A stretch of 32,794 nt of DNA from Granulicella sp. (lineage in GTDB: Bacteria > Acidobacteriota > Terriglobia > Terriglobales > Acidobacteriaceae): positions 11,874 to 44,667 of the forward strand of contig PLUT01000321.1 in NCBI GenBank assembly GCA_003162875.1. The letters run 5' to 3'. The notes under the pieces are model-generated. The model saw only the letters and a program-made list of their open reading frames with translations. It ran no database searches and was not told the origin of the DNA. Below, piece after piece: positions 3,399-26,968 of this stretch. Every line of letters starts with the position of its first letter. Position 1 is the stretch's first letter. The position numbers and the translations under genes were made by a program.

Positions 3399-3412
3399 GC
3401 CAGAGGCTAACG
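3393..3412 (+). terminator. Weak hairpin at the GH3 stop codon
   Basis: CGTTAG and CTAACG form a 6-bp stem around an 8-nt loop, and the stop codon lies inside the first arm. No T-run follows, so an intrinsic terminator is doubtful. Confidence 0.2.
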
Positions 3413-3612
3413 TGCTGAGAGGGCTAAGAGGCGATTTGTGGCACGTCAGCAGGGTGCTGATGCGGGGTTTGTCTTCGTGGCAGGCCGCTCTCGCCCGTTA
3501 GCGCCAATCTGCTTGATAGGGTGCCGCTTGGCTATGACCTCGTCTTCTGGCTGACATCCGGATGGCAAGCCTCTCAGAGCTTCGGCAATGTATCCAAAAG
3601 GGTGGTGCTAAG

Positions 3613-3626
3613 TGGCAACGATGCCA
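3613..3626. promoter_or_regulatory. LacI-type operator O2 (distal of tandem pair)
   Basis: TGGCAACGATGCCA differs from the consensus by one base. It starts exactly 20 bp before O3, close to two helical turns, so two dimers could bind the same DNA face or a tetramer could bridge them. Confidence 0.7.
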
Positions 3627-3632
3627 ACAAAT

Positions 3633-3646
3633 TGGCAACGTTGCCA
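3633..3646. promoter_or_regulatory. LacI-type operator O3 (proximal of tandem pair)
   Basis: This is a perfect 14-bp palindrome, TGGCAACGTTGCCA, ending 8 bp before a TTGACA box. A repressor here would cover the upstream face of the promoter of the 13.2-kb gene. Confidence 0.8.
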
Positions 3647-3654
3647 TTTTTCCC

Positions 3655-3683
3655 TTGACACTGCCATCCGATGCCCCAATAAT
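3655..3683 (+). promoter_or_regulatory. Predicted sigma-70-type promoter of the giant gene
   Basis: TTGACA (3655-3660), a 17-bp spacer and AATAAT (3678-3683) match the classical consensus at 11 of 12 positions. It lies directly downstream of operator O3 and about 150 bp before the start codon. Confidence 0.6.
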
Positions 3684-3839
3684 TGCCCGCGACAGTTCAA
3701 CAGGTTTTCGTTTCGTCCTGGCAGAAATAACCCACAACAAGAGGCCGGTTCCCCTGGAATCCGACCGCCGAGCGAATAAGAGCTTTTTCCGGATCGAGCT
3801 GGGCAGAGCCGGTCGGGCCACTCTTCAAGAGGTGCTTTT

Positions 3840-6800
3840 ATGCAGTTACGTCATCTTGCCTTCGTCGTCGCTTGCCAGTTCACGTTCAGTCTGTTGGTAG
3901 CTCCGGCTCAATCACCGGTAGCGCTGCCGTATACGATGACAACGTTGGCGGGGCAATCGCCAATGACCGGCGCCTCAGGAACTCAGTGTCCGGGCCTCGC
4001 GACAGGAATTAAGTCGTCCAACGCGTACGGCGACGGTTGCCTCGCGGGCAGTGTGGTGCTGGGGGCAGGAATCCACGGCGGCGCTGTAGTGGACTCGATG
4101 GGCAACGTCTTCCTCGACGATGATGTGAAGGGAATTCTACACCTGATCGACCAGGCAACCGGAATGGCTACGGTGGCCGCCGGCGGCGGTGCGACCTGCT
4201 CGGGCAAAGTTACCGGTGCCGGGGACGGCTGCATTGCGGCGACGCAGACGTCTCTGAATGGCCAGCGCGGAGTGGGCATGGACCCGTGGGGTAACGTGTT
4301 GCTTGCCGGCTACGGAGACGGCCTTCTGCACGTAGTCTGTCGCGCCGCCTCACCCTTGTGTGCCGCTTCACAGATCGGTTACATGGAAATGCTTGGCGGC
4401 TGTGTAGCGACGCCAGGAGGCAGCTCGACCGGAAGCAGCACCACACTGATCGGTCTTTCCAATCTCCCGGCCAAAGTCGTCGGGAGCGCTTGCACTCTTT
4501 CCTCGGGCGGCGTGCTGGCAAGTCCTCGCGGCATCACATCCGACATTTATGGGAACGTCTATTTCGCCGACACGAACACGTCGCGCTATAGAGTCATTCT
4601 GGGGCCGCAAACCTCAAGCTACTTCAGTGGGACAAATCCACTATATGCAGCCTTGAGTGTTTATTATCCTTCGCTGACCGCCGGCTATTTTTATTCGATC
4701 GCGAACACTCTCGACAGCGCCGCCTGCGACGCAACCTACACCACGGCTTGCGGAGGAAGCGCCGACTCCCCGACGGCTGCCGGGATGGCCTGCTCGGTCA
4801 CGACGAACAGTGTTACGTATTCCGGCACTTCAACCGACATTTATGGAGATGGATGTCCGTTCAATAACAGCTCTATCACTTCGAGTTCCGGATACACCAC
4901 TGGAAACGCGGTGGATGCAGCAGGTAATTTCATATTTCCTGATCATGGAATGCGGGTCTTCTTCGTTAGCGGCGCGGGCACTGCGGGCGCGGCGATGGCG
5001 AATGCCATCAAGGCAAACAACCCTGGTGTGACGCCACAGCCTGGATTCATCTACCGCCTGGTTGGTGGCGGCTCCACCTCGACATCGGCGACTCCTATCC
5101 TTGGTACCAGTTCTTCCTATACGAGTTCCGGGAGCGCCAGGGTTGCGGTGAGCCCGCAAGGATACATCTATCAGTCGGACGGTGGGAAGCTGTACTTTTT
5201 CGATATCACCACCGGATACTTCCGGCTGGTTTTCTCCGCGAGCAGTAACGTTGCAGCGGGCACGACCTGTGGAACTGGTCTAACGCAGACTTCGCTGAGC
5301 GCGTACAGCGACGGGTGCCCGGCTTCAGACGCTGAGTTTTCCGCGGTAGACGTGTCGATCGACGGCCAGGGCAATCTTTACATGATCGACTCGGGCAGCA
5401 ATACAACGAACAATATTGTCCGCAAGGTACTGGCGCAAGGCCTTGCCTCGGAGACGGTCAGCACCCCCCTGACACAGACATTCGAGGTACACCTGCCAGA
5501 GACGATATCGGGGTCGGTGTCGACTGCGAGCGCGAGCCAAACAACCAACGCGGACATCAGCTTGAGCGCTTTGACGGCCTCCTCGTGCAGCCAGAACGCC
5601 GACAAGACGGTCGACTGTAAGGTCTCGGTGACGGCAACACCTTCGATGCCAGGTCAGCGATCGGAAGACGTCAGCGTGACACTACCGTCAGGGACGAGTT
5701 GGACGAACGCGACGGCGGCGATCAACCTGTCTGGGATCGCTAGCGGTTCAGCGCTGGTTGTCGATAACGGTGCAACGACAAGTTCGGGTACGACGACCCC
5801 GGTTGCACCGGCAACCACAAATGTCTTCGGGAGTATTGTGCCGGCCGGTGTCGCAGTGGATGGCGCCGGTAACGTGTATGTGATGGACAAGGCCAGCGGC
5901 GGAGTTCTCGAGTCTATCGGCGGCTCGGTCTTTACGCTCTCAACGAGCCTGCCCTCCACCCCGCAACAGATTGCCGTCGATGAGTCGGGCAATGTATATA
6001 CCGTGGGCAGCGGCACGTCTGCCATTCAGAAGTTGCAACTTGCTGGAGCGGGTTCACCGGCGACTTACACAGCGACATCTCTTTCGTATACGCCCGCGAC
6101 GGGTACGCCAAGTCCAAGCGCGGTTGCAGTGGATGCGGCCGGCAATGTTTATGTAGCCGACTACCAGTCCGGCGGAGCGTCTATCTATAAACTGTCGCTG
6201 ACGGCGAATACGCTGCAGACTCAAACGACGGTCGCCACCGGCCTGAGCAATCCGGTGTCGCTGGCGGTCGATGGCGCGGGCAACATCTACGCTGCCGATC
6301 AGGGCGCTCATGCGGTTCTTAAATTCGCGCCGGGGCTCAGCGCCGGAGTTTATGCGTACGTCAACTCGACTCTGCTCAGCAGCGTGACACCGGTGGCCGT
6401 GGCCGTGGACGCGGCCGGCGACGTGTATGTGCAGGACATGGCGAGCGTTTCGGTGCTCGAGATTCCAGTCAGCGGCCCAAGTACAGCGACAGTGCTGACC
6501 GGGCTTTCGTCGCCCAGCGGTTTGGCGGTTAACGGTCAGGGCAACGTATATAGCGCGGACACCAGCCTGAACCATATTGTGAAGGTGGTTCGCAATGCGA
6601 CGACCGAGAATTTTGGCACCAGCACGTCGACAACTTACAGTGCCACGCTGACAAATGCTGGGAACCTCGCAGCGACTGGCCAGAATACTACGAACTCGAA
6701 CACAATCAATTTCACTGTCACGGGTGGTTCGAATAACGGCTGTGCTTTCAGCAGCAATATTCTCGGCGCGGTACCGGCAGGAGCCGCATGTACCCTGTCG

Positions 6801-9800
6801 GCAAACCTCACGGGCTCTGGAACAACTGTTGTCTACGACTACCTGAGCTTCTTGCCATCAGCGTCGACGGTTGGCATTTTGACGCTGGAAGGGCAGTTGC
6901 AGGGAACATCTTATCCGACCTCGACTACAGTCAGTGGCCCGTCGCAGCCTTCACCGATCTACTCTCCGTCTGGTACCGAAGCTACGTTTACTGTGACGGT
7001 GAGCGCCAGTACGGCACCCTCATATCCAGTCGGCTCTGTCGACGTTTATGTCGATTCAACGTCCTCATTCACTCAGTACAGTCTGAGCCAGGTGAGCAGC
7101 ACCACATCGAGTGTCTCGGTGCCGGTTTCCGGAGTCGTTGCCGGCACCCATACCTTCGCCGTTGTGTATCCAACCACCGGCATGTTTACCGGATCGGGAT
7201 CGGTGAGTACCACGACCGGCTTTACAATTTCTCCGACCGGCACGGCGGTGAGTTGGACACCCGGGGCCACGACCCAGCAGGTGAGTGCAGCGATCGGGAC
7301 CAGTGTTCTAAACCCAACCGTTTTGCCTGCGACACCTGGAACTTTCATTTATTCGATCATTGCGACGCCGAGCTGCAACAGCACAAACGGGGGCACCATC
7401 AACTCGGCGACCTATCTCCCGATAGGCAGCTACACGCTCTATACCATCTTCTGCCCGATGGACTCAAACGACTACAGCAGCTCGTCGGCATCAGTCAGCA
7501 GCTATACGGTCACGCCGGCGGCGACGACTGCCGCTGTGGGTGCATCGACCAGCGTGGTTGCGGCCGATGGGACCGGCAACTACACAACGCTTTCCGCAGC
7601 CCTGGCAGCTCTGCCTACGACCGGCGGCACCATATACATCAAGCCGGGGACCTACTCGGGACAGAACGCGATTACCTTTCCCAATGTGTCTCTGCGCGGT
7701 CTCGGCGGAGATCCGACAAAGGTGATTTTGACCGCTGAAGATGGCGCGTTCTCAAGTCCCTACTTCGGCTATCTGGGAACTGGAACCGGCGCCGGCAATG
7801 CCAGTGCGGGCGGCGACCAGGGATCGTCGACCCTTGACATCACGTCGGGCACGTACATGGGAGAGACCTCGGGTAGCACGTCAAGCCCGATCGGTTCGCA
7901 AAGCAGCAGCTCGCACAACCCCAACAATTTTTATGCCGAGTACCTGACGATTCAGAATACCTGGGACTACAGCCTGGATACCACGTCTATTTTCTACAAC
8001 GGTTCCACTTGTCTTTCCGGCGCGACGGAGACCCTGCAGTTTCTTTACAACAATGGCGAAGCATGCGCCGGGCAGGCACTGGCGGTCTGGATGACCTCGG
8101 ATCAGGCAATTCTGAACAATGTCAACCTCTACAGCCAGCAGGACACGCTCCTAGCCGGCAGCCAAGGCTGCGGCTCGACCTGCACTGCGGCCCGCGAATA
8201 CATGTGGAAGGGTTTGATTTCCGGTGACGTGGATTACGTCTTCGGCGACGCCGCTCTGGTCTTTGACCACACCACATTTTTTACAACCTTTCACGGTTCC
8301 GCCACCGGCACAAATACGATAGAGGCGCAGAACAAGCATTTCCAGACCGGCAGTTCCGCCGATTACCTCAGCGGCTACATCTGCAACGGGTGCACGCTGT
8401 TGTCGCAAGGGCCGGGAATGACAAATCTCTTTTACGGCCGGCCGTACGGCCCGTACTCTACCTGGATCATGCTCGACTCGTCTGTCGATCAGGTCGGTCC
8501 GGCGGGCTGGATCGAGTTTTCCGGCGACACGAATCTGCCTACCTCGACTTACGGGGAATACAACACCATGCCATATACCGATCCTGCGGTCGGCGTTTCG
8601 CCTTACCCAGCGACGGTCAATGGAGCAACGCCGGCGGGCGGCAATACGGGATCGGGAGCAACTAGCTTCAGTTCCCGCGAAACCACATCGGCATCGCCAG
8701 GAACATTGCAGGCTTCAAACGCCGATCCACGACTGCTGACCGCGGCGGAAGCGGCCCAGTACTACCCGATTAACTTCCTCTCGACGCCGATTCCATCCGC
8801 GAATCTATCGTCAGGCGAATCCTCAACCTGGAATCCGGTGACGAGTCTCGCGACCCTTATCAACGCATTCGTACCGGCGGCGCCCCTAGGCAGTCATGCG
8901 TATGGATCGTCGATCACCATCCTTGGGCGCCCGGAAACACCGGGCGCGGGCTTTGTTCCGACGGGTTCGTATGCCTTCTATGACAGCATCGGAACGAACC
9001 AGGTTTGCACTGTGGTCTCCAGTAGTTGCACGCAGTTGGCGAGTGGATCGCTCGACGCATCCGGCGAAGCATATCTGACCACGGGATCGTCCTCCAGCAT
9101 CGCGCTGCAGTCGGGCACCCACTACATCACGATGGTCTACGGCGGCGACTCGAACTTCGCCGGCAGCACCTCCGCCACGTATGTAATTAACATTGCGGCC
9201 CAGGTGATCGGCACTGCCACGGCTCTGACGGTGACCAACCCCAGCAGCACCTACGGCGGCACGATCGGCGGTACCGTGACCGCAACTCCGGCATCGGGCA
9301 GTGATTACGCCGTCGGAACCGTGACGCTGTCATCGGGATCGACGTCGCTGGGCACTTGCGCACTGAATGGAACCTCCAATACTTGCAGCTTCTCGCTGAC
9401 CAACGTTCCCGCCGGCGTGCAGACGATGATCGCAAGCTTCGGCGGCGGCACAAGTCTGGACGGGACCGAAACGCTAGGCAGCAGCACTTCAGGCGGCGTG
9501 ATCTTCACCGTCAACCAGGTCGTGCTGCACGTGGCAGCGAATAACGCCACGATGATCGCTGGCACCAGCTTGCCCATCTTCACTTACACTACCAGCGGCT
9601 ATGTAAATTCGGATACCTCCGCGGTGTTGACCGGCGCGCCTTCGATAACTACAGCTTCAACCGGCACCTCCATAGGCGAATATCCGATCTCGATCACGAC
9701 CGGAACGCTCGCGTCTAGCAACTACACCTTCACCTTCAGCGGCGGCTACCTATACGTCACCGGCACCGCGCAGGCTCCCGCCGTGGCTACCGGCGACACG

Positions 9801-12800
9801 CGCACCGTCACCGAGCCATCGTTCCCGGCGGTTTGCCAGCAACTCAACGCAGATATCACCCAAGTCAACAACGATATCCCGACTTCGGTCGATACGGTCG
9901 CAACGCCGCTCACCAATGCCAATCTCATCAATCCTACGGTTACCAATCCCGACGGCGGACGCATCCAGGCAGCATTGAATGCCTGCTCGGCGAGCTATCC
10001 TGGCTCGGGTCAGGGGCTCGCTGTTGAGCTTTCGGTCGACGGTGCTGGTAACAATGCGTTCCTTGCAGGCCCGCTGACGATACCATCCAATGTCACGCTG
10101 CTTGTCGACCCAGGAGTGGTGCTGTTCTTCTCGCGCAATGCCCGGGATTACGACACGGTCCCCGGAAACTACCAGTGCGGCAATATCTCCACCGCGTCGA
10201 ACGTGTGCCAGTCGATGGTCACTATTCCTAAAACTGCGGCGAATGTCGGCATTATGGGTTACGGCAAACTGGACGGACGCAGCAGCGATCCACTGCTCAA
10301 CGCCATCCCGCCCTATCAGGGGTACAGTTGGCTGGGTCTTGCCGCGGCGTATGTCAGTCCAAACGGCGCCCAGGTGCCACCGTTTGTCACGGTTACAGCA
10401 GGAGCGACCAACGTCACTCTGTACAAGATCACGATTCGCAATGCGGCCAACCGCCATATCGGCGACGGGGCAAACGGCTCGACAATCTGGGATGTCAAAC
10501 TCATCACGCCTACATCGGGGCGCAATACCGACGGCATCGATACCGGCAACTCCAACATCACAATTACTCGTTCGTGGATATCCGATGGCGACGACAACGT
10601 GGCAATCGGCGCTGCGAATACTCCAGCCAACAACATCTCTGTAACGCATAATCACTTGTTCGCGGGTCACGGACAGTCGATCGGGAGCTATACGGGAAGT
10701 GGGGTCAGCAATATTCTCTGGGATGGCAATATAGCTGTGGGCAACGGTTTTGCCGGCAGCAGCTCTGCCACCCATGGGAGCGCGGTCAGCGGCACCGGAA
10801 CCTTCTTGAACGGGGCAAGTGACAACAGCTCGACCGGCGTTCGAATTAAAACCGCTAATGACCGTGGTGGTCTGGTCACCGGCATTCAGTACTCCAACGA
10901 GTGCATGCTGGACCACAGTATCGATGTTCAGTTCACCCCGTATTACAGCACTGGCGATTCTACGAATGCGTTTCCGAACTACAAGAACATCCTGCTGCAG
11001 AATGTGGTCTTCGCGAACGACGCTTCCAGCACTGGAAGCGTGGAGTTTACCGGCGAGTTCAACACCAATCTCAATGGCACTCCCAGCCCGGTTATCAACC
11101 CTATCTATGCCACGCTGGATAACGTGACATTCCCATCTGCACTCTCCAGTTCCAGTCTGGTGAATTCGACGACACCGTTCGAGACTACCAGCGTTTGGGA
11201 CAATGGAAACTATAGCGGCGGCACCGGACAATACGCGAATCTTACCTACGGTCCCGGCGAAGTTTCGGCCAACTTTATTACGGCCTTCGGCACGTTGGTC
11301 AATGTTGCGGCCAACAACGACACGGTGACCAACAACATCACGGCCACCAGTCTGAATCCGCCAGTATGCAGCTATACCTACATCGCGCCAGAGTTGACCG
11401 GACCGACCGGTCTGCCGCAGGCCATCACCTCCGGGCAGAATACCTCGGCGGTCGTGATTCTGACACCGGCCGTCGGTGGCGCAGCCTATCCGACTGGAAC
11501 CGTCACGCTGACCGATGCGCTGACCAGCACGACTTACACGGCCACCCTTCCGGGAAACACCGACACGCTTACGATTCCCCTGCCCGGATTGGCGGTCGGC
11601 ACACACACCTTCACCGCGGCCTACTCAGGCGACACCAACTATGTAGTTCCCAACGGCCAGACTGTCTACACGACGACAGCGCCCTACGACATCACCGTCA
11701 ACGCCGGCAGCCTGAGCAGCACCACCACGGAGGTGGGGCTGCCCGTGAGCACCTCTATTACCTCCAACTACGGCACGCCCGTCACCGCAACGGCCACCGT
11801 CACCGGCAGCAATCCCGCCGGCTCGGTGCAGTTTGTCATCAGCGGAGGCGGCCTCACCGGCAGCTACACTTATGCCACTGCGGCGCTTGCCTACTCGACG
11901 GGCACAACCAGCACGGCTTCGGCCAGCATCAACCTGCCTCTCAGCTCCACTGCCTACAGCATTACCGCGGTCTATAGCGGCGACCTGGCGAACGCAGGCT
12001 CTACTTCGTCCGTGGCTTCGCTGACTGTTGGCGCGGCCGCAACGGTGACCACGGTGACGCCGAGCGCCTCGAGCGCCGCGCTGGGCAATCCCCTGGTTCT
12101 GACGGCTACCGTCACCTCCGTGGTTGGAACGCCCGTGGCCGCTACCATAACCTTCGCGTATTCCACTACGCCCACTGGCGCGCAGACCACCCTGGGCACC
12201 GCTGCTTTGTATAACGGATCGAGTGCGTACTTCGTCAACTCCTTGCCGATCGGTACGTACTATCTTCACGCGAGTTATCCGGGCGCCGGTAGTTTTGCAG
12301 CTTCGAGTTCCACGGTTCCAACCACCATCACTGTCACCGCCGCGACCAACATCGTGCAGTTGTTCAACAACCCAATCGCGCTGCCCTACACGATCACCAC
12401 CATCGCTGGTGGGGGCGCAGCAGTGTCCAGCAGCGGCAATATGCTATGCACCGGGGCCACCGACAAATATGGCGACGGCTGCCAAGCCATTGCGACCGCA
12501 TTCACTTCTGGCGACGATCTGCGCGGCGTCGATGCCGATCCATTCGGCAACGTCTATGTGACCGACGGCAGTGCCGCTCGGATCCGCCGCATAGCGCCCA
12601 ACGGCATCATCAGCACCTTTGCAGGTGGCGGCTCGACCTGCACGCTTCCGGCCTCAACGTCGGCCATAGGCACTGGCTGCACGCCCACGCTAGTCACTAT
12701 CGGCAAGACGCGCGGCGTCTCCTCCGATGTGGCAGGCAACATCTATATCGCCGATTACGCTGACGGTAAGGTCTACGAGGTCAAGGTCTCCGACGGTCTG

Positions 12801-15800
12801 ATGTACTTGGTTGCGGGCAATGGCACCTCGGGTACCAGCGGCGATGGCGGACCGGCCATATCTGCCGAAATCGCTTCTCCGCGTAGCGCGTGGGGCGATA
12901 GTGTGGGCAACATCTACATTGCCGACACCAGCAACGAACGGGTTCGCGTTGTCGACACCGCGGGCAATATCCACACCTTTGCCGGTGCGGGAGGCACAAC
13001 TTCAACAGGCGACGGCGGCCCGGCGCTATCTGCGAATTTCGACAATCCGCAGGGCGTCTTCGCAGACCCGAATCTGAATGTATATGTCACCGATTCCCTG
13101 GGAAGGATCCGCGTCGTCTGCGTTACCTGCGGAACCGGCTCGCCGCTGGATACGCTGTTGAGCAAGCTGGGAATCACTTCGCCCGTGAATGGGGATATCT
13201 ACACCGTCGCCGGCAGTGGATCGTCCGTAGCTTATACCGGCTCCTATCCAATCCTGAGCACCAGCGTTTCGATGTCTCCGCAGAAGCTATCCATGGACAA
13301 CGCCGGTAACCTATACATCTCCGACAGCAATGGCATTATCTGGCTTCTGGATTTCCATACCGGATATATCCGCGCGATTGCCAAGAACGGTACAGTTTGC
13401 TCGGGCGCGTCCAACACGTACGGATACAAGAGCTACGGCGACGGATGCCCCGCCACTCAGGCCAGCTTTGGCAGCAATGGCGGTAACGGCTTCGGCGCCG
13501 GAACAGACACGCAAGGCAACCTTTACATAGGAGACACGACCAACCAACTTATCCGCAAGGTGATCACCGGACTGGCGTCGCCTTCGACGACAACGGCGGC
13601 GACGACTGCGCTGCCTGAGCAATTGCACTTCACCGTTGGCGACACATTGGCGAGCAGCAATGGACTGGCTTATACATCGAGCGAGTGGACGCTGGGCACG
13701 CCCAACTGCACCACCAATGGCGACAGCACGGCTGATTGCCTGTTCATTTCCAGCTTCACTCCGGCGGTTCCCGGCCTGCGCTCCGCGCCGCTGACCGTGA
13801 ACAGCTCTCTCGCTAATAAGGCGAACCTTGGCCTGATTGGCGTTGGCGTCGGCGCCGGCGCCACGCTCGATCCTGCTTCCCAGGTTAGCTTCGGGAGCGG
13901 CCTCTCCGTCGCCGGTCTGGCTGCGGACAACGCAGGTAACATCTACGTCTCCGATGCCAACAGTAACAAGCTGTATCGCTACGCGCTATCCGCGATCGCG
14001 AATGGAACCAGTGCAACCGGAACCGTTCTAGCGACTCTGGGAGCGCCAGGAGCTGTGGCCGTCGACGCGCGCGGCTATGTCTACATCGCTGATACATCTG
14101 CGGGGACCGTGACGCAGATTTCCCCCGTGGGCTCGGGCACAGTCTTGCCGTTCACCTTCAGCAAACCTGCCGGTCTTGCCCTCGATGCGCTCAACAATCT
14201 TTACGTGTCGGATTCCTCCGCGCAAGCCGTCTATCAGGTCAACCCCATCACGGGAGCATCGAAGACCCTGGCTATTGGAAAGCTGGTTGCGCCCGCGGGC
14301 CTGGCCATCGATCCGTCTGACAACCTGCTCATCACCGACCCCGGAGCACCGGCCATTTACCGCTATAGCTTGCAAAGTGGAGTCACCACCACGGTTTCTT
14401 CCACGGCCGTCAAACCGTTAGCCACGGTGACAGACGCCGCCGGAAACTTGCTCATCGCAGACACAGCGCAGATTCTCGCAGTGCCGGCAAGCACGAAGAG
14501 CGCGTTGTTCGTCGTATCGAACGTCACGCCCTCGGGTTTTGCAATCGATTCGGGCGGCAACCTGTACACCGGCCAGTCGGGCGCTGTCCTTGAGCTGATG
14601 CGTACCAAGGGCTATTTCCAGTTCGCGGGACCGTCCGCAGCGCCACAAAACTTCAGCATGCTTGAATCGGGCAACAGCGCCTTCGCGGGAACCTCGTTCA
14701 GCCAGACCGACAGCGCCGATTACAGCCTTGTTCCAGCGCCCTCGACCGATTGCACGCTCTCGAGTGCTGGGGCCGGGGGCCTGACGATTGGCGGTGTCTG
14801 TGCGCTCACGGCCAGTTATACCCCCACTACATACGCGACAACCATCGATACGGTTACGTTCAACGGCAACCTGACCAACGCCGCCCTCTCCAGCCCGTCT
14901 GTGGTCGAACTCGTGCTCACTGGGCCCGCAATAGCTCCTGCATCCACGATAACGTTAGGTTCTTTGGCACCTGCATCGCCTGTCTACGGTCAGGCCGTTA
15001 CTCTCACCGCCACGGTCTCCGGCGCGGCGCTCACGCCCGCCGGCACGCTCGTGTTTATGGTCGACTCCTCAATCTACAGCACCACGGTCAGCAACGGCGT
15101 TGCTACAGCCATGGTTACCGGTTTGAACGCGGGCACCCATAGCCTATCGGCTTCCTACACAAGCAGTAACGGATATATGGCTGCGACGCAGGTAACACAG
15201 AGCATCGTGGTCAGTCAGGCCACCCCTGCGATCACCTGGCCGACGCCAGCGGCGATCTCCTATGGCACGGCGCTCGGCGCAACCCAGCTCGACGCCAGCT
15301 CAACCGTGGCCGGAACATTTGCCTACTCACCGGCTGCCGGAGCGGTGCTGGGGTCTGGATCACAGACGCTCTCGGTCACCTTCACCCCGACCAATACCAC
15401 CAACTACACCACAGCCACGGCCAATGTCACGCTGATCGTGAACAAGGCGTCGCTTCTGGTGACGGCAAACTCGCCAGCCATCGCTTACGGCGCGGCGTTG
15501 CCGTCCTACACTGCGGCAATCACCGGCTTCCAAGGCACGGACACAGCGGCAACGGTCGTGACCGGCTCGGCATCGTTGACGACCGTGCCGGCGGTGCCGA
15601 GCGCGGTGGGTGGCTACACCATCACCGTGGCGCAGGGCACGCTGGCCGCGGCCAACTACACCTTCGGCTTCGCCAACGGCACGATGACCATCGCCAAGGC
15701 CACGTCCTCGTTGACCGGCCCGGCTTTGTCGGCGCAGCCGGTGCAGGTGGCCTTCAACCAGGCAGGATCGGTCTCGGTGATGGTGGCGGGACAGTACTCG

Positions 15801-17072
15801 GGCGCGGGCATTGCAACGCCGACTGGGACCATCAGCTACACGATCGGCACAGGCAACGCCCAGACGGCGGCAATCTCCAGCGGCACGGCCACCGTGAGCA
15901 TTCCGAATACGCAGGTCTCGGGGCTCTACACGGTTGCGGTGAGCTATACGGGCGACACCGACTATAGGGCAGCCACCGCCTTGAGCTTCCAGGTGCAGGT
16001 GGGCCCGCAGGCGCAGACCATCGCCTTCAACTCGTTGACGCCGGTGACCTACGGCGCGGTGCCGATTACGCTGAGCGCAACGGACACTTCGGGCCTGCCG
16101 GTTACGTTTACCGTCAAGTCCGGTCCGGCGACACTCAGCGGAAACGTGCTGACGGCGACCGGCGCTGGATCCGTGGTGGTTGCTGCCGACCAGGCGGGCA
16201 ATGCGCTCTGGCAGGCGGCGACCGAGGTCACGCAGACCCTGACGGTCGGAAAAGCTGCACCGGCGGCGATTGGGCTGGCATCCTCCTCCAACCCGGTGCT
16301 GGTCCAGAACGCGGTGACGTTGACGGCGACGGTCTCCTCGGCGGCCGGACCGCTGACCGGCACGGTGACCTTCCTGGATGGCGCGACGCCGCTGGGCACG
16401 GGCACACTGGCTGGCGGAGTGGCGACCCTGACCACGTCGAGTCTGGCGGTCGGTTCACACACAATCACGGCGGTCTACAGCGGCGACGGCAACTTTGTCT
16501 CGTCAGCCAGCGCGGCGCTGACCGAGGTGGTCGACGACTTCGGCGTTGCCATCTCGGTTACCAATGGCTCCAGTTCGATCACCTCGGTGACAGTGTTGCC
16601 CGGTGGTACAGCCGTCTACACCTTCACCGTGAGCCCACTCAACGCGACTACCTTCCCGGCGGCGGTGACACTGTCTGTCAGTGGCCTGCCAGCAGGCGCG
16701 ATAGCGACCTTCTCGCCGGCCACGCTGCTCGCGGGGTCGGGGACGACGACAGTGACGCTGACCATCCAGATTCCGCAGACTGGTGCAGCCCTGCAGCCCA
16801 CCCATGACCCGGGCCGCAGGCTGGCTCCGTTCGCGCTTGCGCTGCTGCTGCTGCCATTTGCGGGTCAATTGCGCCGCGCGGGCAGACGGCTCAAGCGTGC
16901 GGTTTCGCTGCTGTTGTTGCTCGGCGCAGGCCTGGTCGTAGCGGCTGGACTGAGCGGATGCGGCTCCGCCAGCGGCTTCTTCGGTCAGCAACAAACAACT
17001 TACACGGTGACGGTGACCGGAACCTCGGGCACGCTGTCGCACTCCACCACCGTGACCCTCACGGTTGAGTGA
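3840..17072 (+). CDS. Giant secreted pectinolytic protein: NHL/Ig repeats with CE8 pectin methylesterase and GH28 polygalacturonase
   Basis: One uninterrupted 4,410-aa frame. Approximate order by residue: signal peptide 1-24; NHL repeats 28-530; linker domain 535-650; NHL repeats 665-915; Ig-like 920-1235; CE8 pectin methylesterase 1240-1610; Ig-like/MBG 1670-1985; GH28 polygalacturonase 1995-2500; Ig-like 2515-2840; a second NHL-linker-NHL module 2845-3595; an anchor-type beta domain to about 3700; Ig-like/MBG repeats to 4325; a hydrophobic hairpin 4329-4376 with LSGCGS; and a short beta tail. CE8 residues present are Q1412, Q1434, D1435 (QQDTL), D1465 (GDVDYVFG) and R1534 (GRPYG). GH28 residues present are D2231 (NTDG), D2251/D2252 (DGDDN), H2277 (GHGQS) and R2335/K2337 (RIK). 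Both enzymes therefore look active. In pectin breakdown CE8 demethylates homogalacturonan and GH28 hydrolyses the product, so the fusion couples successive steps. The repeats probably make an extended surface or secreted scaffold. Tandem operators and a strong promoter precede it. Confidence 0.93.
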   Translation: MQLRHLAFVVACQFTFSLLVAPAQSPVALPYTMTTLAGQSPMTGASGTQCPGLATGIKSSNAYGDGCLAGSVVLGAGIHGGAVVDSMGNVFLDDDVKGILHLIDQATGMATVAAGGGATCSGKVTGAGDGCIAATQTSLNGQRGVGMDPWGNVLLAGYGDGLLHVVCRAASPLCAASQIGYMEMLGGCVATPGGSSTGSSTTLIGLSNLPAKVVGSACTLSSGGVLASPRGITSDIYGNVYFADTNTSRYRVILGPQTSSYFSGTNPLYAALSVYYPSLTAGYFYSIANTLDSAACDATYTTACGGSADSPTAAGMACSVTTNSVTYSGTSTDIYGDGCPFNNSSITSSSGYTTGNAVDAAGNFIFPDHGMRVFFVSGAGTAGAAMANAIKANNPGVTPQPGFIYRLVGGGSTSTSATPILGTSSSYTSSGSARVAVSPQGYIYQSDGGKLYFFDITTGYFRLVFSASSNVAAGTTCGTGLTQTSLSAYSDGCPASDAEFSAVDVSIDGQGNLYMIDSGSNTTNNIVRKVLAQGLASETVSTPLTQTFEVHLPETISGSVSTASASQTTNADISLSALTASSCSQNADKTVDCKVSVTATPSMPGQRSEDVSVTLPSGTSWTNATAAINLSGIASGSALVVDNGATTSSGTTTPVAPATTNVFGSIVPAGVAVDGAGNVYVMDKASGGVLESIGGSVFTLSTSLPSTPQQIAVDESGNVYTVGSGTSAIQKLQLAGAGSPATYTATSLSYTPATGTPSPSAVAVDAAGNVYVADYQSGGASIYKLSLTANTLQTQTTVATGLSNPVSLAVDGAGNIYAADQGAHAVLKFAPGLSAGVYAYVNSTLLSSVTPVAVAVDAAGDVYVQDMASVSVLEIPVSGPSTATVLTGLSSPSGLAVNGQGNVYSADTSLNHIVKVVRNATTENFGTSTSTTYSATLTNAGNLAATGQNTTNSNTINFTVTGGSNNGCAFSSNILGAVPAGAACTLSANLTGSGTTVVYDYLSFLPSASTVGILTLEGQLQGTSYPTSTTVSGPSQPSPIYSPSGTEATFTVTVSASTAPSYPVGSVDVYVDSTSSFTQYSLSQVSSTTSSVSVPVSGVVAGTHTFAVVYPTTGMFTGSGSVSTTTGFTISPTGTAVSWTPGATTQQVSAAIGTSVLNPTVLPATPGTFIYSIIATPSCNSTNGGTINSATYLPIGSYTLYTIFCPMDSNDYSSSSASVSSYTVTPAATTAAVGASTSVVAADGTGNYTTLSAALAALPTTGGTIYIKPGTYSGQNAITFPNVSLRGLGGDPTKVILTAEDGAFSSPYFGYLGTGTGAGNASAGGDQGSSTLDITSGTYMGETSGSTSSPIGSQSSSSHNPNNFYAEYLTIQNTWDYSLDTTSIFYNGSTCLSGATETLQFLYNNGEACAGQALAVWMTSDQAILNNVNLYSQQDTLLAGSQGCGSTCTAAREYMWKGLISGDVDYVFGDAALVFDHTTFFTTFHGSATGTNTIEAQNKHFQTGSSADYLSGYICNGCTLLSQGPGMTNLFYGRPYGPYSTWIMLDSSVDQVGPAGWIEFSGDTNLPTSTYGEYNTMPYTDPAVGVSPYPATVNGATPAGGNTGSGATSFSSRETTSASPGTLQASNADPRLLTAAEAAQYYPINFLSTPIPSANLSSGESSTWNPVTSLATLINAFVPAAPLGSHAYGSSITILGRPETPGAGFVPTGSYAFYDSIGTNQVCTVVSSSCTQLASGSLDASGEAYLTTGSSSSIALQSGTHYITMVYGGDSNFAGSTSATYVINIAAQVIGTATALTVTNPSSTYGGTIGGTVTATPASGSDYAVGTVTLSSGSTSLGTCALNGTSNTCSFSLTNVPAGVQTMIASFGGGTSLDGTETLGSSTSGGVIFTVNQVVLHVAANNATMIAGTSLPIFTYTTSGYVNSDTSAVLTGAPSITTASTGTSIGEYPISITTGTLASSNYTFTFSGGYLYVTGTAQAPAVATGDTRTVTEPSFPAVCQQLNADITQVNNDIPTSVDTVATPLTNANLINPTVTNPDGGRIQAALNACSASYPGSGQGLAVELSVDGAGNNAFLAGPLTIPSNVTLLVDPGVVLFFSRNARDYDTVPGNYQCGNISTASNVCQSMVTIPKTAANVGIMGYGKLDGRSSDPLLNAIPPYQGYSWLGLAAAYVSPNGAQVPPFVTVTAGATNVTLYKITIRNAANRHIGDGANGSTIWDVKLITPTSGRNTDGIDTGNSNITITRSWISDGDDNVAIGAANTPANNISVTHNHLFAGHGQSIGSYTGSGVSNILWDGNIAVGNGFAGSSSATHGSAVSGTGTFLNGASDNSSTGVRIKTANDRGGLVTGIQYSNECMLDHSIDVQFTPYYSTGDSTNAFPNYKNILLQNVVFANDASSTGSVEFTGEFNTNLNGTPSPVINPIYATLDNVTFPSALSSSSLVNSTTPFETTSVWDNGNYSGGTGQYANLTYGPGEVSANFITAFGTLVNVAANNDTVTNNITATSLNPPVCSYTYIAPELTGPTGLPQAITSGQNTSAVVILTPAVGGAAYPTGTVTLTDALTSTTYTATLPGNTDTLTIPLPGLAVGTHTFTAAYSGDTNYVVPNGQTVYTTTAPYDITVNAGSLSSTTTEVGLPVSTSITSNYGTPVTATATVTGSNPAGSVQFVISGGGLTGSYTYATAALAYSTGTTSTASASINLPLSSTAYSITAVYSGDLANAGSTSSVASLTVGAAATVTTVTPSASSAALGNPLVLTATVTSVVGTPVAATITFAYSTTPTGAQTTLGTAALYNGSSAYFVNSLPIGTYYLHASYPGAGSFAASSSTVPTTITVTAATNIVQLFNNPIALPYTITTIAGGGAAVSSSGNMLCTGATDKYGDGCQAIATAFTSGDDLRGVDADPFGNVYVTDGSAARIRRIAPNGIISTFAGGGSTCTLPASTSAIGTGCTPTLVTIGKTRGVSSDVAGNIYIADYADGKVYEVKVSDGLMYLVAGNGTSGTSGDGGPAISAEIASPRSAWGDSVGNIYIADTSNERVRVVDTAGNIHTFAGAGGTTSTGDGGPALSANFDNPQGVFADPNLNVYVTDSLGRIRVVCVTCGTGSPLDTLLSKLGITSPVNGDIYTVAGSGSSVAYTGSYPILSTSVSMSPQKLSMDNAGNLYISDSNGIIWLLDFHTGYIRAIAKNGTVCSGASNTYGYKSYGDGCPATQASFGSNGGNGFGAGTDTQGNLYIGDTTNQLIRKVITGLASPSTTTAATTALPEQLHFTVGDTLASSNGLAYTSSEWTLGTPNCTTNGDSTADCLFISSFTPAVPGLRSAPLTVNSSLANKANLGLIGVGVGAGATLDPASQVSFGSGLSVAGLAADNAGNIYVSDANSNKLYRYALSAIANGTSATGTVLATLGAPGAVAVDARGYVYIADTSAGTVTQISPVGSGTVLPFTFSKPAGLALDALNNLYVSDSSAQAVYQVNPITGASKTLAIGKLVAPAGLAIDPSDNLLITDPGAPAIYRYSLQSGVTTTVSSTAVKPLATVTDAAGNLLIADTAQILAVPASTKSALFVVSNVTPSGFAIDSGGNLYTGQSGAVLELMRTKGYFQFAGPSAAPQNFSMLESGNSAFAGTSFSQTDSADYSLVPAPSTDCTLSSAGAGGLTIGGVCALTASYTPTTYATTIDTVTFNGNLTNAALSSPSVVELVLTGPAIAPASTITLGSLAPASPVYGQAVTLTATVSGAALTPAGTLVFMVDSSIYSTTVSNGVATAMVTGLNAGTHSLSASYTSSNGYMAATQVTQSIVVSQATPAITWPTPAAISYGTALGATQLDASSTVAGTFAYSPAAGAVLGSGSQTLSVTFTPTNTTNYTTATANVTLIVNKASLLVTANSPAIAYGAALPSYTAAITGFQGTDTAATVVTGSASLTTVPAVPSAVGGYTITVAQGTLAAANYTFGFANGTMTIAKATSSLTGPALSAQPVQVAFNQAGSVSVMVAGQYSGAGIATPTGTISYTIGTGNAQTAAISSGTATVSIPNTQVSGLYTVAVSYTGDTDYRAATALSFQVQVGPQAQTIAFNSLTPVTYGAVPITLSATDTSGLPVTFTVKSGPATLSGNVLTATGAGSVVVAADQAGNALWQAATEVTQTLTVGKAAPAAIGLASSSNPVLVQNAVTLTATVSSAAGPLTGTVTFLDGATPLGTGTLAGGVATLTTSSLAVGSHTITAVYSGDGNFVSSASAALTEVVDDFGVAISVTNGSSSITSVTVLPGGTAVYTFTVSPLNATTFPAAVTLSVSGLPAGAIATFSPATLLAGSGTTTVTLTIQIPQTGAALQPTHDPGRRLAPFALALLLLPFAGQLRRAGRRLKRAVSLLLLLGAGLVVAAGLSGCGSASGFFGQQQTTYTVTVTGTSGTLSHSTTVTLTVE

Positions 17073-17083
17073 CAAGGAGACGG

Positions 17084-17719
17084 ATGAAGATGCGTCGATC
17101 AATCCGCGGAAGGGTGCTCCTAGTGGGCGCATGCATGCTGGCCGGAGCTACCGCTTGGGCGCAACAGCCCCATTCCGGCGCAAGCCCGGCCATTGTCTCC
17201 ACCGACCTGGCCGTAACCTATGCGCCGGAGCGGGCAGAACTTGAGCCCGGCAACTGCGGCTGTTCCTGGCTGCAGGGAGGCAGCGCAGACGCGGCAGTGA
17301 CTTTCAGAAGGGGGCTGGGCATCGCCGCCAGCCTGACCGGAGACCATGCCTCCAACTTCGCGCCCGGCGTGGATGTGAACAAGATCGCATTCATGGCCGG
17401 TCCGCGCTATACCTATACCGCACGGGCCGGCCACGCCGCGACCACGGATGTGCGCCACCTGCAACTCTACGGCCAGGGGCTCTTCGGCGGCGTTCATGCC
17501 TTCAACGGCGTCTTCCCCGCAAGCTCGGGAACCACGTCCAGCGCCGGATCGTTTGCCCTCCAGGTCGGCGGAGGCATGAATCTGTTCTTCTCGAAGAGTT
17601 TCGGCGTGCGCTTGCTGGAGATGGACTATGTAAGGACCGCGCTGCCAAATAGTGCCTCCAACACACAGAACGACCTGCGGCTCGCTTGCGGCGTTCTCTG
17701 GCACATCGGCAGGCACTGA
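17084..17719 (+). CDS. Small outer-membrane beta-barrel protein
   Basis: This is a 211-aa exported protein with a signal peptide (positive start, hydrophobic run, cleavage near AWAQ at about residues 23-26). Alternating hydrophobic/polar strands follow, ending in a strand with DLRLACGVLWHIG, the pattern of Acidobacterial outer-membrane beta-barrel proteins of about 200 aa. I chose the ATG at 17084 because AAGGAG (17074-17079) precedes it. A GTG at 17069 would overlap the upstream stop and leave no room for a ribosome site, while an ATG at 17090 is also possible. It starts 11 nt after the giant gene and is very likely co-transcribed with it, which suggests a role in anchoring or exporting the giant protein. 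That partnership is inference only. Confidence 0.8.
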   Translation: MKMRRSIRGRVLLVGACMLAGATAWAQQPHSGASPAIVSTDLAVTYAPERAELEPGNCGCSWLQGGSADAAVTFRRGLGIAASLTGDHASNFAPGVDVNKIAFMAGPRYTYTARAGHAATTDVRHLQLYGQGLFGGVHAFNGVFPASSGTTSSAGSFALQVGGGMNLFFSKSFGVRLLEMDYVRTALPNSASNTQNDLRLACGVLWHIGRH

Positions 17720-19448: not shown

Positions 19449-20477
19449 TCAATCGCAGCCGCAGGAGCGGCGACAAACGAGTTCACCAGCTAACGTAATG
19501 ATCTGAGCGCCTTGCGGGGCGTCCCCGGGCGATGTTACTTTTTCTCGCCCATCTATTTTACGGAACAGAAGATCGAGGGCATAACGGACCATCAGGTCCA
19601 CCGGCTGTCGGATCACTGTAAGTGCAGGATTCATGAGCGGAGCAAAATCAAAATCATCAAAACCTATGAGTGGCAGTCTGTCCTTCGCTGCAAGACCCAT
19701 GTCATTGAAGGCGAACAAGATGCTGCCGGTTGCCATATTGCTTAGAGAAAGGAGTGCGTCTGGGTGTTGCCGGTGGGATAGAGCGGAGGCCAGCATTAAC
19801 CGTAGATCACTATAGTCGAGAGCCTCCATCACTTGGGGTTTGTGCCCTGCGCTGTGCATTGCGTCGGTATATCCCAGGATGCGTTCTCTGAAAGTGACTA
19901 GATCCGTTTTTGCGGTCACACAAGCGACACCTGTATGCCCATGGCGGAGGAGGTGGTCCGTAGCGACGCGGGCGGCCTCCCGATTCCTCAACATTACGGA
20001 ATCAAAGTCCATCGAGAGTGCCCGGTCGAACGCAACGGCGGGGGTTTCTCCTAAAACCGATGCGATCTCATCAGGCGTACTTCCTGTAGCGGAGGCAAGA
20101 ATGACACCATCGGCGCGGTAGCGCCTGAGGGTGCCCAACTGTTGGAGCTGGCGGTCCTTATCTTCTTCATGAAGCAGCAGGATGATAGCGAAGCCTCGCC
20201 GATGCGCTTCAGACTCAATCGCCTGAATCGCCCTGCTGAAGAAGGTGTTGTCGACTTGCGGTACGACGAGTCCGATGGTGCGGGTTGAGCCCCCCCGCAA
20301 AGCCCTCGCTGCTTCGTCGGGCGTATAGCCAAGTTGCTTTATAGCGGCCGAGACGCGCAGTGCTGCGTCCGAGCGGATACTGATACCCCGCAAGTATCGG
20401 GACACAGTCGACGCACCCACCTTTGCCATTCTCGCAACGTCGGTGACTGTTGGCCGTCTTTGCCGGGTACCCCTCAC
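19449..20477 (-). CDS. LacI-family transcriptional regulator 1
   Basis: A cytoplasmic DNA-binding regulator of about 342 aa. The N-terminal helix-turn-helix has PTVTDVARMA followed by the recognition region VGASTVSRYLRGI, and a hinge motif DEAARALRGG that inserts into the central CG of LacI-type operators. A periplasmic-binding-protein-like sugar-sensing domain follows (IGLVVPQVDNTFF, GFDDFDFAPLM, VIRQPV), ending in SCGCD. An ATG at 20483 directly abuts the AAGGAG element, whereas the GTG at 20477 is spaced 6 nt from it, so GTG is my preferred start. It is divergent from the GH28 gene with operator O4 between them, which points to autoregulation and control of pectin genes by a sugar ligand. 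The ligand is unknown. Confidence 0.9.
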   Translation of the reverse strand: MRGTRQRRPTVTDVARMAKVGASTVSRYLRGISIRSDAALRVSAAIKQLGYTPDEAARALRGGSTRTIGLVVPQVDNTFFSRAIQAIESEAHRRGFAIILLLHEEDKDRQLQQLGTLRRYRADGVILASATGSTPDEIASVLGETPAVAFDRALSMDFDSVMLRNREAARVATDHLLRHGHTGVACVTAKTDLVTFRERILGYTDAMHSAGHKPQVMEALDYSDLRLMLASALSHRQHPDALLSLSNMATGSILFAFNDMGLAAKDRLPLIGFDDFDFAPLMNPALTVIRQPVDLMVRYALDLLFRKIDGREKVTSPGDAPQGAQIITLAGELVCRRSCGCD

Positions 20478-20564
20478 TTGCATCTCCTTTTCAAATAAAC
20501 ATCTTGGCCGACAAGACCATTATGGCAGCGTCTGAGGAATTGTCCCCAAAACCGTTGCCTTAAG

Positions 20565-20578: not shown

Positions 20579-20771
20579 TAGAATGATCAACGCAGCAATA
20601 TGTTGGGGGGCATAACACGGCTGTCCATTTAGGTCGTCGAGGGCTCGTTGGGGCGCCTTCCTCCAGTTAGCGTGGCATCGATGCTTCCGATCCGCTGGGG
20701 GCGCGGTCGATTTGTTTCATTCCCCATTGCACTAGCGTCAACCGCTTCCTGAATCATGAGAGGCAGTGAGA

Positions 20772-22004
20772 ATGCGCTTCAACTTGTTACTTGTTCTTGT
20801 CTTATTCTCCGTCTCAAGTGGAGCAAGTGCTCGCGCTGAGAAAATCTGCGACGTTCATACCTATGGCGCAACTGGCGACGGCCGGACGAAAGATACAGCT
20901 GCGATTCAAGCGGCGATCGACGATTGCGCAAAGACGGGAGGAACGGTCAGGGTAGCAGGCGCACCGACCTTCATCAGCGGGCCTATCACTCTGCGAAGCA
21001 AAATCACCTTGTCCGTCGCCGCCGGAACAACCCTCGCCGCATCCAGTGATCACGACGACTTCCCCGAGGAGCAGCAGTTTGGAGAATTGTCGAGAAGAGC
21101 GTTTCTGACGGCGAAAGATGCGATTGACGTCGTGATAACGGGCGGCGGTGTGATCGACGGGCGAGGAGACAGTTGGTGGCCCCATCGCGAGCCGGGCTAC
21201 ACGCGGCCAAGACTCATCGTGTTCGACCATTGCAAACACGTGAGGATGGAGAACATCACGGCACAAAATTCTCCCATGTGGCAGATCGTACCTTATTACT
21301 CCGATGACGTTGTCTTCCGCAATATGAAGGTCTTGGCACCCACGACTTCGCACAACACAGACGGGATCGATCCGTTCTCTTCCAGCCATGTCGTAATCGA
21401 CCATGTGGTCATCGACACGGGCGATGACAATATTGCGATCAAGAGCGGGCAGCCGAATTCACCCGGACCCGATGCGCCGAGCACTGACATCAGTATTAAG
21501 GATTGCACATTTCTGAACGGACACGGACTTTCCATTGGAAGCGAAGTATCCGGCGGAGTCCAGAGAGTTCGTGTCGAACGGGTCCATTTCAAGGGCACAG
21601 GAACAGGCATTCGTATCAAAGCGAATCGAGACCGCGGTGGCGATATCGGACCACTGAGCTACAGCCACCTCGACATGGAGGATGTGGGTACCGCAATCCT
21701 GATCACTGAGTTTTACCCAAAGATCCCAACATCGATCGATCCAGCTCCGATTACGCGGCTGACGCCCCGCTTTCATGACATTACCATCTCAAACGTTCGC
21801 GCAAAGAGGTCGAAGGAGGCCGCTGTCGTTGTGGGTTTGCCGGAGTCCCCGATCCTCGGTCTCCGGCTATTCAATGTGTCCATTCAGGCAACTAAAGGTG
21901 CCACGCTGCAGTACGTCCAGGTCGCAGTGAAGAGCTTCAACGTGCAAGCATCGGCCGGTGCCAGCATAGCGATGGGCCAGGGTGTTACGAAGATTGAGAA
22001 ATAG
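20772..22004 (+). CDS. Exported GH28 polygalacturonase-family glycoside hydrolase
   Basis: A 410-aa right-handed beta-helix enzyme predicted to hydrolyse alpha-1,4-galacturonosyl or related pectic linkages after export. A signal peptide covers about residues 1-22 (LLLVLVLFSVSSGASARA). All GH28 signature residues are present: N195-T-D197-G, D218-D219 in TGDDNIAIKSG, H251 in GHGLSIGSE, and R281-I-K283. The length is typical for a single-domain family member. I chose the ATG at 20772 because GAGAGG (20758-20763) gives normal spacing; a GTG at 20766 is too close. It differs clearly from the GH28 embedded in the giant gene, which has larger loops, so the two may prefer polymer versus oligomer. Operator O4 lies upstream. 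Confidence 0.93.
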   Translation: MRFNLLLVLVLFSVSSGASARAEKICDVHTYGATGDGRTKDTAAIQAAIDDCAKTGGTVRVAGAPTFISGPITLRSKITLSVAAGTTLAASSDHDDFPEEQQFGELSRRAFLTAKDAIDVVITGGGVIDGRGDSWWPHREPGYTRPRLIVFDHCKHVRMENITAQNSPMWQIVPYYSDDVVFRNMKVLAPTTSHNTDGIDPFSSSHVVIDHVVIDTGDDNIAIKSGQPNSPGPDAPSTDISIKDCTFLNGHGLSIGSEVSGGVQRVRVERVHFKGTGTGIRIKANRDRGGDIGPLSYSHLDMEDVGTAILITEFYPKIPTSIDPAPITRLTPRFHDITISNVRAKRSKEAAVVVGLPESPILGLRLFNVSIQATKGATLQYVQVAVKSFNVQASAGASIAMGQGVTKIEK

Positions 22005-22213: not shown

Positions 22214-22500
22214 GGGCTGTCCTAGATAACTACTTTTCTATGAAGTAGGGATAGGATGGTCTGGCGATGCGCAAGAGTCGTTTGTCGTGGTCGATCAGAA
22301 GAACCACATCAACGGCATCGAGAACTTCTGGAATCAGACCAAGCGTCATATGCGTCGTTTCAACGGCATCCCCGCCACCCACTTTTACCTCTACTTGAAG
22401 GAGTGCGAGTGGCGTTTCAACACCCCTCAACCAAAACTACAACAAACCCAATTGATTCAATGGGCTAAAACTCATCTGAGATAGTTATTTGGAGTGTCCA
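22214..22500 (+). mobile_element. Relict IS1595/ISXO2-like insertion element, internally deleted
   Basis: Only the C-terminal part of a DDE transposase remains, in frame from about 22266 to 22484. It includes DQKNHINGIENFW, KRHMRRFNGIP and LKECEWRFN, the HxNGIExFW and KECEWRFN blocks typical of ISXO2-like transposases. Imperfect ends face each other: the left begins GGGCTGTCCTAGATAACTA (from 22214) and the right, read in reverse, GGACACTCCAAATAACTA (from 22500). They share the ATAACTA block and TCC. The upstream catalytic region is deleted, and no target duplication is evident. The right boundary is uncertain by about 15 bp because it merges with GH2 coding sequence. Confidence 0.7.
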
Positions 22501-22950
22501 TATCCCATAGCTTGGTGGAGGGCGCGCTGAGTGAAGAAGAGATGGTGGTGCTTTGGCCGGCGGCGAGGTCCACCGGCATATCGACCGACACCAGAACTTT
22601 TTGGCCAACGGGATCAATCACTGCGAAGCGCAGGTTTCCTGTAGCCGCGCCGCTGGATTTGTTTTCCAGCGTGGCGTGCGCCGTTATCTGCTTTGGCTGG
22701 GGAGTATTTAATACCCAAGCGTCGGCGATGCGGAGGTCGCCATGCACGCTGAGCATCATGGCGCGATCAATGCCGCCGAATCCGTGGCTCTTCTGGAACT
22801 CGACGTGGCCCCAGGTGATGCGGCTCCCGTCGACCCAGTCCAGACGTCCTCCGGGGTTGGTAATGCGAATGCAGAGCAGGTTTTTTCCTGGCTGGGCCGC
22901 TTGGGTGAGATCGCACTCAAACGGTAGTTCTTCCATGATGGAGTAGCCAA

Positions 22951-22954
22951 CTAG
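22951..22954. repeat. CTAG target-site duplication, left copy
   Basis: This is the left copy of the 4-bp duplication flanking the IS5-family element; the right copy is at 23766-23769. CTAG-type targets are known for IS5-group elements. Because CTAG is palindromic and the element ends begin GG, a shorter duplication (TA or CTA) cannot be excluded. Confidence 0.75.
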
Positions 22955-23765: not shown

Positions 23766-23769
23766 CTAG
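23766..23769. repeat. CTAG target-site duplication, right copy
   Basis: This is the right-hand partner of the copy at 22951-22954. Deleting the element plus one copy restores the GH2 reading frame exactly. Confidence 0.75.
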
Positions 23770-26501: not shown

Positions 26502-26813
26502 CGCTTAGGCCAGCATGCGACCGAACAGAAGAATCGCAACCAACGCCGTGGTCCTCACTGTTCAGCAGGTTACATTAGACGTCGCTGGAGTGACACGCAA
26601 AAGGTTGGGGGCTGAGACTATAGCCTGGCTCCGACCTCCCGTGCGAGGCGGCTTGGCGTATCGGCGGTTCTGATGCAACTAAGGCGGGTCCTTCTAAGAG
26701 ACTTGGGCCAGCGACTTGCATCGAAGCTTCTTGGTTGATCCGCTGGGCAACTAAGCGTTAAACTACTCATAAATAAATAGTTAGTTCGGATATGTTTACT
26801 GAGGCAATTTTAT
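26502..26813. other. Divergent intergenic region between MFS and TonB receptor, nothing further recognised
   Basis: About 310 bp without a supported gene or repeat. It becomes AT-rich from 26755 onward, leading into operators O6 and O7. Confidence 0.5.
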
Positions 26814-26827
26814 TGGCAACGCTGCCA
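26814..26827. promoter_or_regulatory. LacI-type operator O6 upstream of the TonB receptor
   Basis: TGGCAACGCTGCCA differs from the consensus at one position. It starts 24 bp before O7. Both sites lie inside the longest open frame but upstream of the probable true start at 26969. Confidence 0.7.
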
Positions 26828-26836
26828 CTTTTTATA

Positions 26837-26866
26837 TTGACAACGTTGCTAGTTAGGGCTGATAGT
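26837..26866 (+). promoter_or_regulatory. Predicted promoter of the TonB receptor, overlapped by operator O7
   Basis: TTGACA (26837-26842), an 18-bp spacer and GATAGT (26861-26866). The -35 box lies inside operator O7, so a bound repressor would exclude RNA polymerase. The position implies a leader of about 95-100 nt to the ATG at 26969. Confidence 0.5.
26838..26851. promoter_or_regulatory. LacI-type operator O7 overlapping the -35 box
   Basis: TGACAACGTTGCTA keeps the central CAACGTTG and differs from the consensus at two outer positions. One of these changes creates the TTGACA -35 box. It is likely a weaker site used together with O6. Confidence 0.55.
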
Positions 26867-26968
26867 GCTCCAGTCCGCAATTTACGGAAGAGACCTAATT
26901 TTTCAGGGATGCCGTCAAAGGCGTTCCAGAACGGAATCGGCATGCAGATGTCTAAGAGGCCAACAATC

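Follow-up and report, generated by a model that had tools for sequence, protein, structure and literature searches.

A giant protein joining CE8 and GH28 domains on an NHL/Ig repeat scaffold, a candidate surface-tethered pectin-degrading enzyme of Acidobacteriaceae

In pectin breakdown, separate esterase and hydrolase enzymes are the norm. Does the giant open reading frame at 3840..17072 (+, stop codon included) of the window, the whole stretch of 32 794 nucleotides analyzed here, encode both activities in a single chain, and where would such a chain be placed? A preliminary description had claimed one uninterrupted frame holding CE8 and GH28, ten catalytic residues, Ig-like spacers and flanking NHL modules, and had proposed a domain search, structure prediction and a search for other proteins joining CE8, GH28 and NHL repeats as checks. 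The frame (4410 aa) starts with ATG and contains no internal stop. In all seven 2-kb steps the G+C content at third codon positions (0.66–0.80) is higher than that at positions 1 and 2, which fits one coding frame and bears out the first claim. Pfam finds CE8 (PF01095) and GH28 (PF00295), both above their curated cut-offs, together with eight stretches of Big_3_5, MBG_2 and NHL/propeller repeats, so that the spacers and flanking modules are recovered as well; all ten residues were found at the positions given for them. A probable Sec signal peptide (about residues 1–24; 3840..3911, +) can be read from the sequence.

The CE8 pectin methylesterase region spans residues 1226–1700 (7515..8939, +) and is supported by Pfam, alignment, solved relatives and predicted fold. 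The Pectinesterase model scores 87.9 bits against a cut-off of 27 (6.8e-25; best stretch 1403–1576). Besides Q1434 the region holds Q1412, D1435, D1465 and R1534, the Gln/Asp/Asp/Arg catalytic set of CE8, which are invariant in the alignment of all nine fused homologues. Among solved pectin methylesterases the region matches 1xg2 from tomato (2.9e-19) and 1gq8 from carrot (1.2e-15). The structure model built from 38 sequences (mean pLDDT 71, pTM 0.80) resembles solved pectin methylesterases, as the preliminary description would lead one to expect: the first 15 PDB hits are all pectin methylesterases or their relative YbhC, with 1xg2 as the best (4e-15). One departure from other CE8 enzymes is GRPY instead of GRPW, which is shared by the other four rows of alignment A1.

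The GH28 polygalacturonase region follows at residues 1981–2510 (9780..11369, +), identified by Pfam and alignment. Glyco_hydro_28 scores 90 bits against a cut-off of 22.9 (2e-25; best stretch 2134–2400), and D2231, D2251, D2252, H2277, R2335 and K2337 are invariant in 9/9 fused homologues. The best solved relative is 1bhe, a named polygalacturonase (2.2e-38). Of the GH28 polygalacturonase motifs NTD, DD, GHG and RIK, the first three are matched in the alignment to 1bhe, and RIK lies in a further, weak stretch. As judged from sequence, the giant contains a CE8 and a GH28 domain, each with intact catalytic residues; chance or degenerate matches are ruled out by the Pfam scores and the invariance of these residues.

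Both domains are embedded in a repeat scaffold, all module borders of which are approximate. NHL propeller module 1 (about residues 30–920; 3927..6599, +) and module 2 (about residues 2843–3620; 12366..14699, +) were found by Pfam and align to each other with 28% identity (7.5e-33), so the scaffold has an internal duplication. Between the catalytic domains lies an Ig-like/MBG spacer (residues 1701–1980; 8940..9779, +; best MBG_2 stretch 1896–1971, plus Big_3_5 stretches) that can be aligned over the nine homologues and includes invariant positions. Ig-like repeats (about residues 3700–4302; 14937..16745, +; best Big_3_5 stretch 4147–4231) lead to the C-terminal end.

We searched 398 genomes of the family Acidobacteriaceae. 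The window genome (G000; contig G000:C29) is one of a set of 62 genomes that belong to a single genus. With the giant CE8 model, 13 loci in 12 genomes score at least 496 bits, and the next match falls to 129 bits. Nine of the 13 carry GH28 in the same frame (the window, G007, G055, G243, G258, G206, G278, G349 and G301), so that eight further genomes hold the fused giant, and in all nine Pfam matches CE8, GH28, NHL and Big_3_5. This common design makes the giant look like a genuine form of a familiar type of enzyme. The other CE8 loci have no in-frame GH28 (G020, G000:C111 and the CE8 giant of G287) or are cut by the contig end (G378). The locus G000:C111 is a second CE8 giant of the window genome (2055 aa, L024 8424-14588) without GH28. 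Conversely, GH28 giants without CE8 in frame occur, among the matches listed, in G061, G321, G396 and G287, and that of G315 starts at a contig end; in G287 the CE8 giant and the GH28 giant are divergent neighbors, with a tail on each. Among 376 genomes drawn from the phylum, every giant CE8 locus found belonged to a member of Acidobacteriaceae. Fused members form no single clade in either the CE8 or the GH28 domain tree, which suggests that the linkage is easily gained or lost. The trees do not support just one origin of the fusion: well-supported branches force at least three changes in the CE8 tree and at least five in the GH28 tree, counts that may be too high because the contig-cut G378 and G315 and the distant G020:C10 were scored as unfused.

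The pairing of the two enzyme families also occurs in a compact form. At least 48 loci in at least 47 of the 398 family genomes (lower bounds, with the best four candidates per genome scored) encode GH28-CE8 fusions in frames of 789–995 aa. Like the giant they hold both families in one chain, but they are far shorter, GH28 comes first in 48/48, the opposite of the giant, and their CE8 is far less similar, with about 92–125 bits to the giant CE8 model versus 496–857 for the giants. Pfam finds both domains in 6/6 scanned of the 48, all six of which are cut short by a locus end, and also in a protein outside the 48 (L026 of G043); eight further CE8 frames of 623–824 aa have no GH28 partner among the matches listed. 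Outside the phylum, one of 80 loci, searched with a GH28 model built from three giants that may miss distant GH28, carries CE8 followed by GH28 in a single 836-aa frame. This protein of Actinospica durhamensis shares the order of the giant, but it belongs to a different phylum and Pfam reports no NHL/Ig repeats in it. At the same locus (L110 3180-7065) a GH28-like frame directly precedes the fusion frame. Large CE8 proteins with S-layer homology (SLH) domains, such as one of Paenibacillus doosanensis (L099, 2447-aa frame), resemble the giant in placing CE8 on a long repeat scaffold (fn3/Ig) with a surface-attachment domain; they differ in that GH28 is not reported and SLH domains stand in place of the tail described below. 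Two actinobacterial frames, L073 (3143 aa) and L079 (2922 aa), have five Pectinesterase stretches each plus fn3 domains.

That CE8 and GH28 are paired in more than one arrangement supports a functional link between them. It also narrows the earlier statement that no enzyme of this architecture had been described: for the NHL/Ig giant this agrees with our literature searches (titles and abstract starts, with most subscription journals outside scope), in which no CE8-GH28-NHL enzyme was found, whereas the CE8 plus GH28 pairing itself is common in the family as compact fusions and also occurs in Actinospica. What is unusual is the giant form with its NHL/Ig repeats. The enzyme families and an anchor modeled by NCBIfam are already known, and what we did not find described is their conserved combination.

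The preliminary domain list did not include the C-terminal end of the giant. Here, on the last 110 residues, the NCBIfam model NF058595.1, 'lipo-invert putative C-terminal anchoring domain', matches with 66.1 bits against a cut-off of 37 (3.2e-18; residues 4303–4409; 16746..17066, +) and ends one residue short of the C-terminus. The end of the last Ig domain is followed by a short hydrophobic segment, an Arg/Lys-rich loop, a second hydrophobic segment, L-S-G-C (residues 4371–4374, with the codon of the lipobox cysteine C4374 at 16959..16961, +) and final strand-like stretches. A full-length NCBIfam scan of the giant did not show NF058595, and no convincing Pfam family was found for the tail; the NF058595 match rules out a wholly new C-terminal tag. 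NCBIfam labels this model putative, and it spans nothing but the tail; the association between one tail subtype and a barrel gene comes from the present analysis. No use of the lipo-invert names was found in the literature searched (most subscription journals outside scope). A single-sequence structure model of the tail was poor (mean pLDDT 57).

The tail is present on seven of the nine fused giants (absent from G007 and G206), and 13/13 tails of one tail alignment match NF058595.1 at E≤1. Removal of redundancy from 60 tail frames left 48 distinct tails, which consist of a hydrophobic segment, an Arg/Lys-rich stretch with a median of 5 basic and 0 acidic residues, a second hydrophobic segment and mostly L-T/S-G-C. 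Position −1 of the lipobox is G in 47 of them and A in the remaining one, position −3 is L in 33 and position +2 is G in 40; a median of 36 residues separates the lipobox from the end, with a strand-like finish such as VTLTVQ. Tails at E≤0.001 occur in 62/62 genomes of the genus, and at E≤1e-6 in 32 of a draw of 297 phylum genomes, 30 of the same family and two of another. The order of elements rules out membership in MYXO-CTERM: that tag is a cysteine, one helix and an Arg-rich end, whereas in the window tail a hydrophobic segment, an Arg-rich loop and another hydrophobic segment come before the cysteine and the strand-like end. LspA scores above cut-off in 5/5 genomes examined; Lgt-like matches are found in all five, above the curated cut-off in one and below it in four. 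As for Type II secretion as export route, secretin-type matches are likewise present in 5/5, none above the gspD cut-off. The tail of the repeat scaffold probably anchors the giant at the cell surface, and its presence gives an extracellular, tethered reading a basis.

Directly downstream lies a candidate partner of the tail, an outer-membrane beta-barrel-like protein of about 211 aa (17084..17719, +). Its ORF was listed from GTG 17069 (216 aa); the likely start is ATG 17084 behind AAGGAG, 11 bases past the stop codon of the giant. Pfam reports nothing at E≤0.001 on the 216-aa ORF, and the only NCBIfam match, TIGR04565 OMP_myx_plus, is weak (0.00096, 19.2 bits versus a cut-off of 60); this match and the sequence itself are the basis for calling the protein barrel-like. 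Homologues of the barrel occur in 47/62 genomes of the genus. Among 30 barrel loci listed, 22 directly follow an in-frame tail; the other eight comprise a tail in another frame (L176), a broken barrel (L185) and six longer proteins, with an OmpA-type domain in the two of these that were scanned.

Seen from the tails, 51 distinct loci (those with the best scores in the genus and phylum searches) include 26 with the barrel next door (leaving out L240, which has no tail frame, and the duplicate L244). An aromatic motif after the cysteine separates the two groups: 26 of 28 motif-positive tails are barrel-adjacent versus 0 of 23 motif-negative ones, by a rule shaped on these same data. One of the barrel-less positives, L196, is counted as such by VIL and not by an aromatic residue. 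We then held the motif and distance rules fixed for 40 further tails, hand-picked among the matches listed, with the barrel coordinates of some already known and no rows dropped, and found 14/17 motif-positive versus 2/23 motif-negative tails to be barrel-adjacent (Fisher 2.8e-6, a value that overstates independence because the genomes are related). One of the 40 (L256) had been seen earlier and seven (L251, L259, L262, L263, L264, L270 and L282) are at least 80% identical to earlier tails over the last 60 residues; without these eight, the numbers are 9/10 versus 2/22. The window tail belongs to the motif-positive, barrel-adjacent type. Pectinase giants as a whole do not come with a barrel partner: the gene was found to adjoin only one of the nine fused giants, that of the window, while G243 and G278 are not judgeable because their contigs end about 400 bases further on. 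It is also found next to the giant of G396, which has GH28 only.

Among working systems, TraA/TraB of Myxococcus comes closest to the tail plus barrel; according to PMC11980579, a surface protein with a cysteine-bearing C-terminal tag has there a partner gene of overlapping reading frame. As we read that source, TraB has a barrel plus an OmpA domain, unlike the window barrel, whose 216-aa ORF has no OmpA match, and this rules out membership in a TraA/TraB-type pair. The order of the tag differs, and the resemblance is thus one of working and not of membership. We tentatively propose, as a possibility that we would not yet call probable, a two-gene surface-display module of Acidobacteriaceae: the lipo-invert lipopeptide of a giant passenger would dock by its aromatic motif (CGSASGFFGQ, CAGGYFAL, CGAGFALP) into a small outer-membrane barrel dedicated to it, the product of the next gene downstream, while the strands of the lipopeptide would complete the last Ig domain of the passenger, which here would be a two-step pectinase.

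What would the giant do? We consider it reasonably likely that it is an enzyme that an Acidobacteriota bacterium close to Granulicella secretes and tethers to its cell surface, and that it degrades pectin in two steps. Sec would export the chain; CE8 would then strip methyl esters off homogalacturonan and GH28 would cut the freed polygalacturonate close by, as is known of these families. With its two hydrophobic segments the tail would make a hairpin in the membrane, and Lgt/LspA would lipidate the L-S-G-C and perhaps cleave it as well. In the event of a cut, the lipopeptide of 37 residues would remain attached, since the final Ig domain would take its last strands from it. The beta-barrel protein next door may help to position the giant at the outer membrane or to keep it there.

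An unlikely but serious alternative is that the giant is a precursor, cut between Ig repeats after export, such that CE8 and GH28 act separately and are possibly released; the single frame would then only ensure equal amounts. The long Ig/NHL linkers would suit such processing, the fused state has been gained or lost repeatedly, and the three CE8 giants without GH28, those of G287 and G020 and the second locus of the window genome (G000:C111), imply that the linkage is not essential. However, no processing site was noticed on inspection of the giant, the spacer between the catalytic domains aligns with invariant positions in the nine homologues, and the two fusion orders hint that the linkage as such is favored. 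More doubtful still is the idea that the domains have some other main substrate, an esterified uronic-acid or rhamnogalacturonan one, or are binding modules of a large adhesin. GH28 spans several specificities, and adhesion scaffolds often contain NHL and Ig repeats; yet all catalytic residues are kept in 9/9, the best solved relative of GH28 is a polygalacturonase, and CE8 beside GH28 fits methylated homogalacturonan. An assembly artefact fusing separate genes is very improbable although the assembly of the window genome is broken into 394 contigs and 84.6% complete, as the ORF is one uniform coding frame, eight other genomes have the same fusion, including G007 (9 contigs, 99% completeness), and the named catalytic residues are invariant throughout.

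If the two-step, surface-tethered reading holds and both enzymes sit on one surface chain, products would be kept near the cell and the protein would be a natural test of enzyme coupling, for which the two opposite fusion orders within one family offer a ready comparison. The tail subtype and the adjoining barrel gene give a sharp, testable hypothesis on how common soil bacteria may display very large proteins.

The giant is set near a stand-alone GH28 gene and LacI regulators. The former (412 aa; 20766..22004, +; Pfam 5e-50) possibly belongs to the same pectin locus, and a LacI-family regulator, identified by family match, is divergent from it (19449..20483, −). A carboxypeptidase-regulatory plus outer-membrane barrel protein of 1425 aa (26792..31069, +; PF25183, PF13620) is a candidate importer. 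At 22472-24330 (−) of the window lies a possible broken beta-galactosidase-like gene: 22472-22936 weakly matches GalA (3.1e-8, far below cut-off), and 23734-24330 (−) has a twin-arginine-like signal at its start, with no family match found. Upstream of the window, on the same contig (L028, G000:C29:1-11873), a nif cluster at 779-11401 (+) includes a NifS-like cysteine desulfurase that misses its cut-off by about 1 bit, and nifD, nifK, nifE, nifN and a nifV-type homocitrate synthase above theirs.
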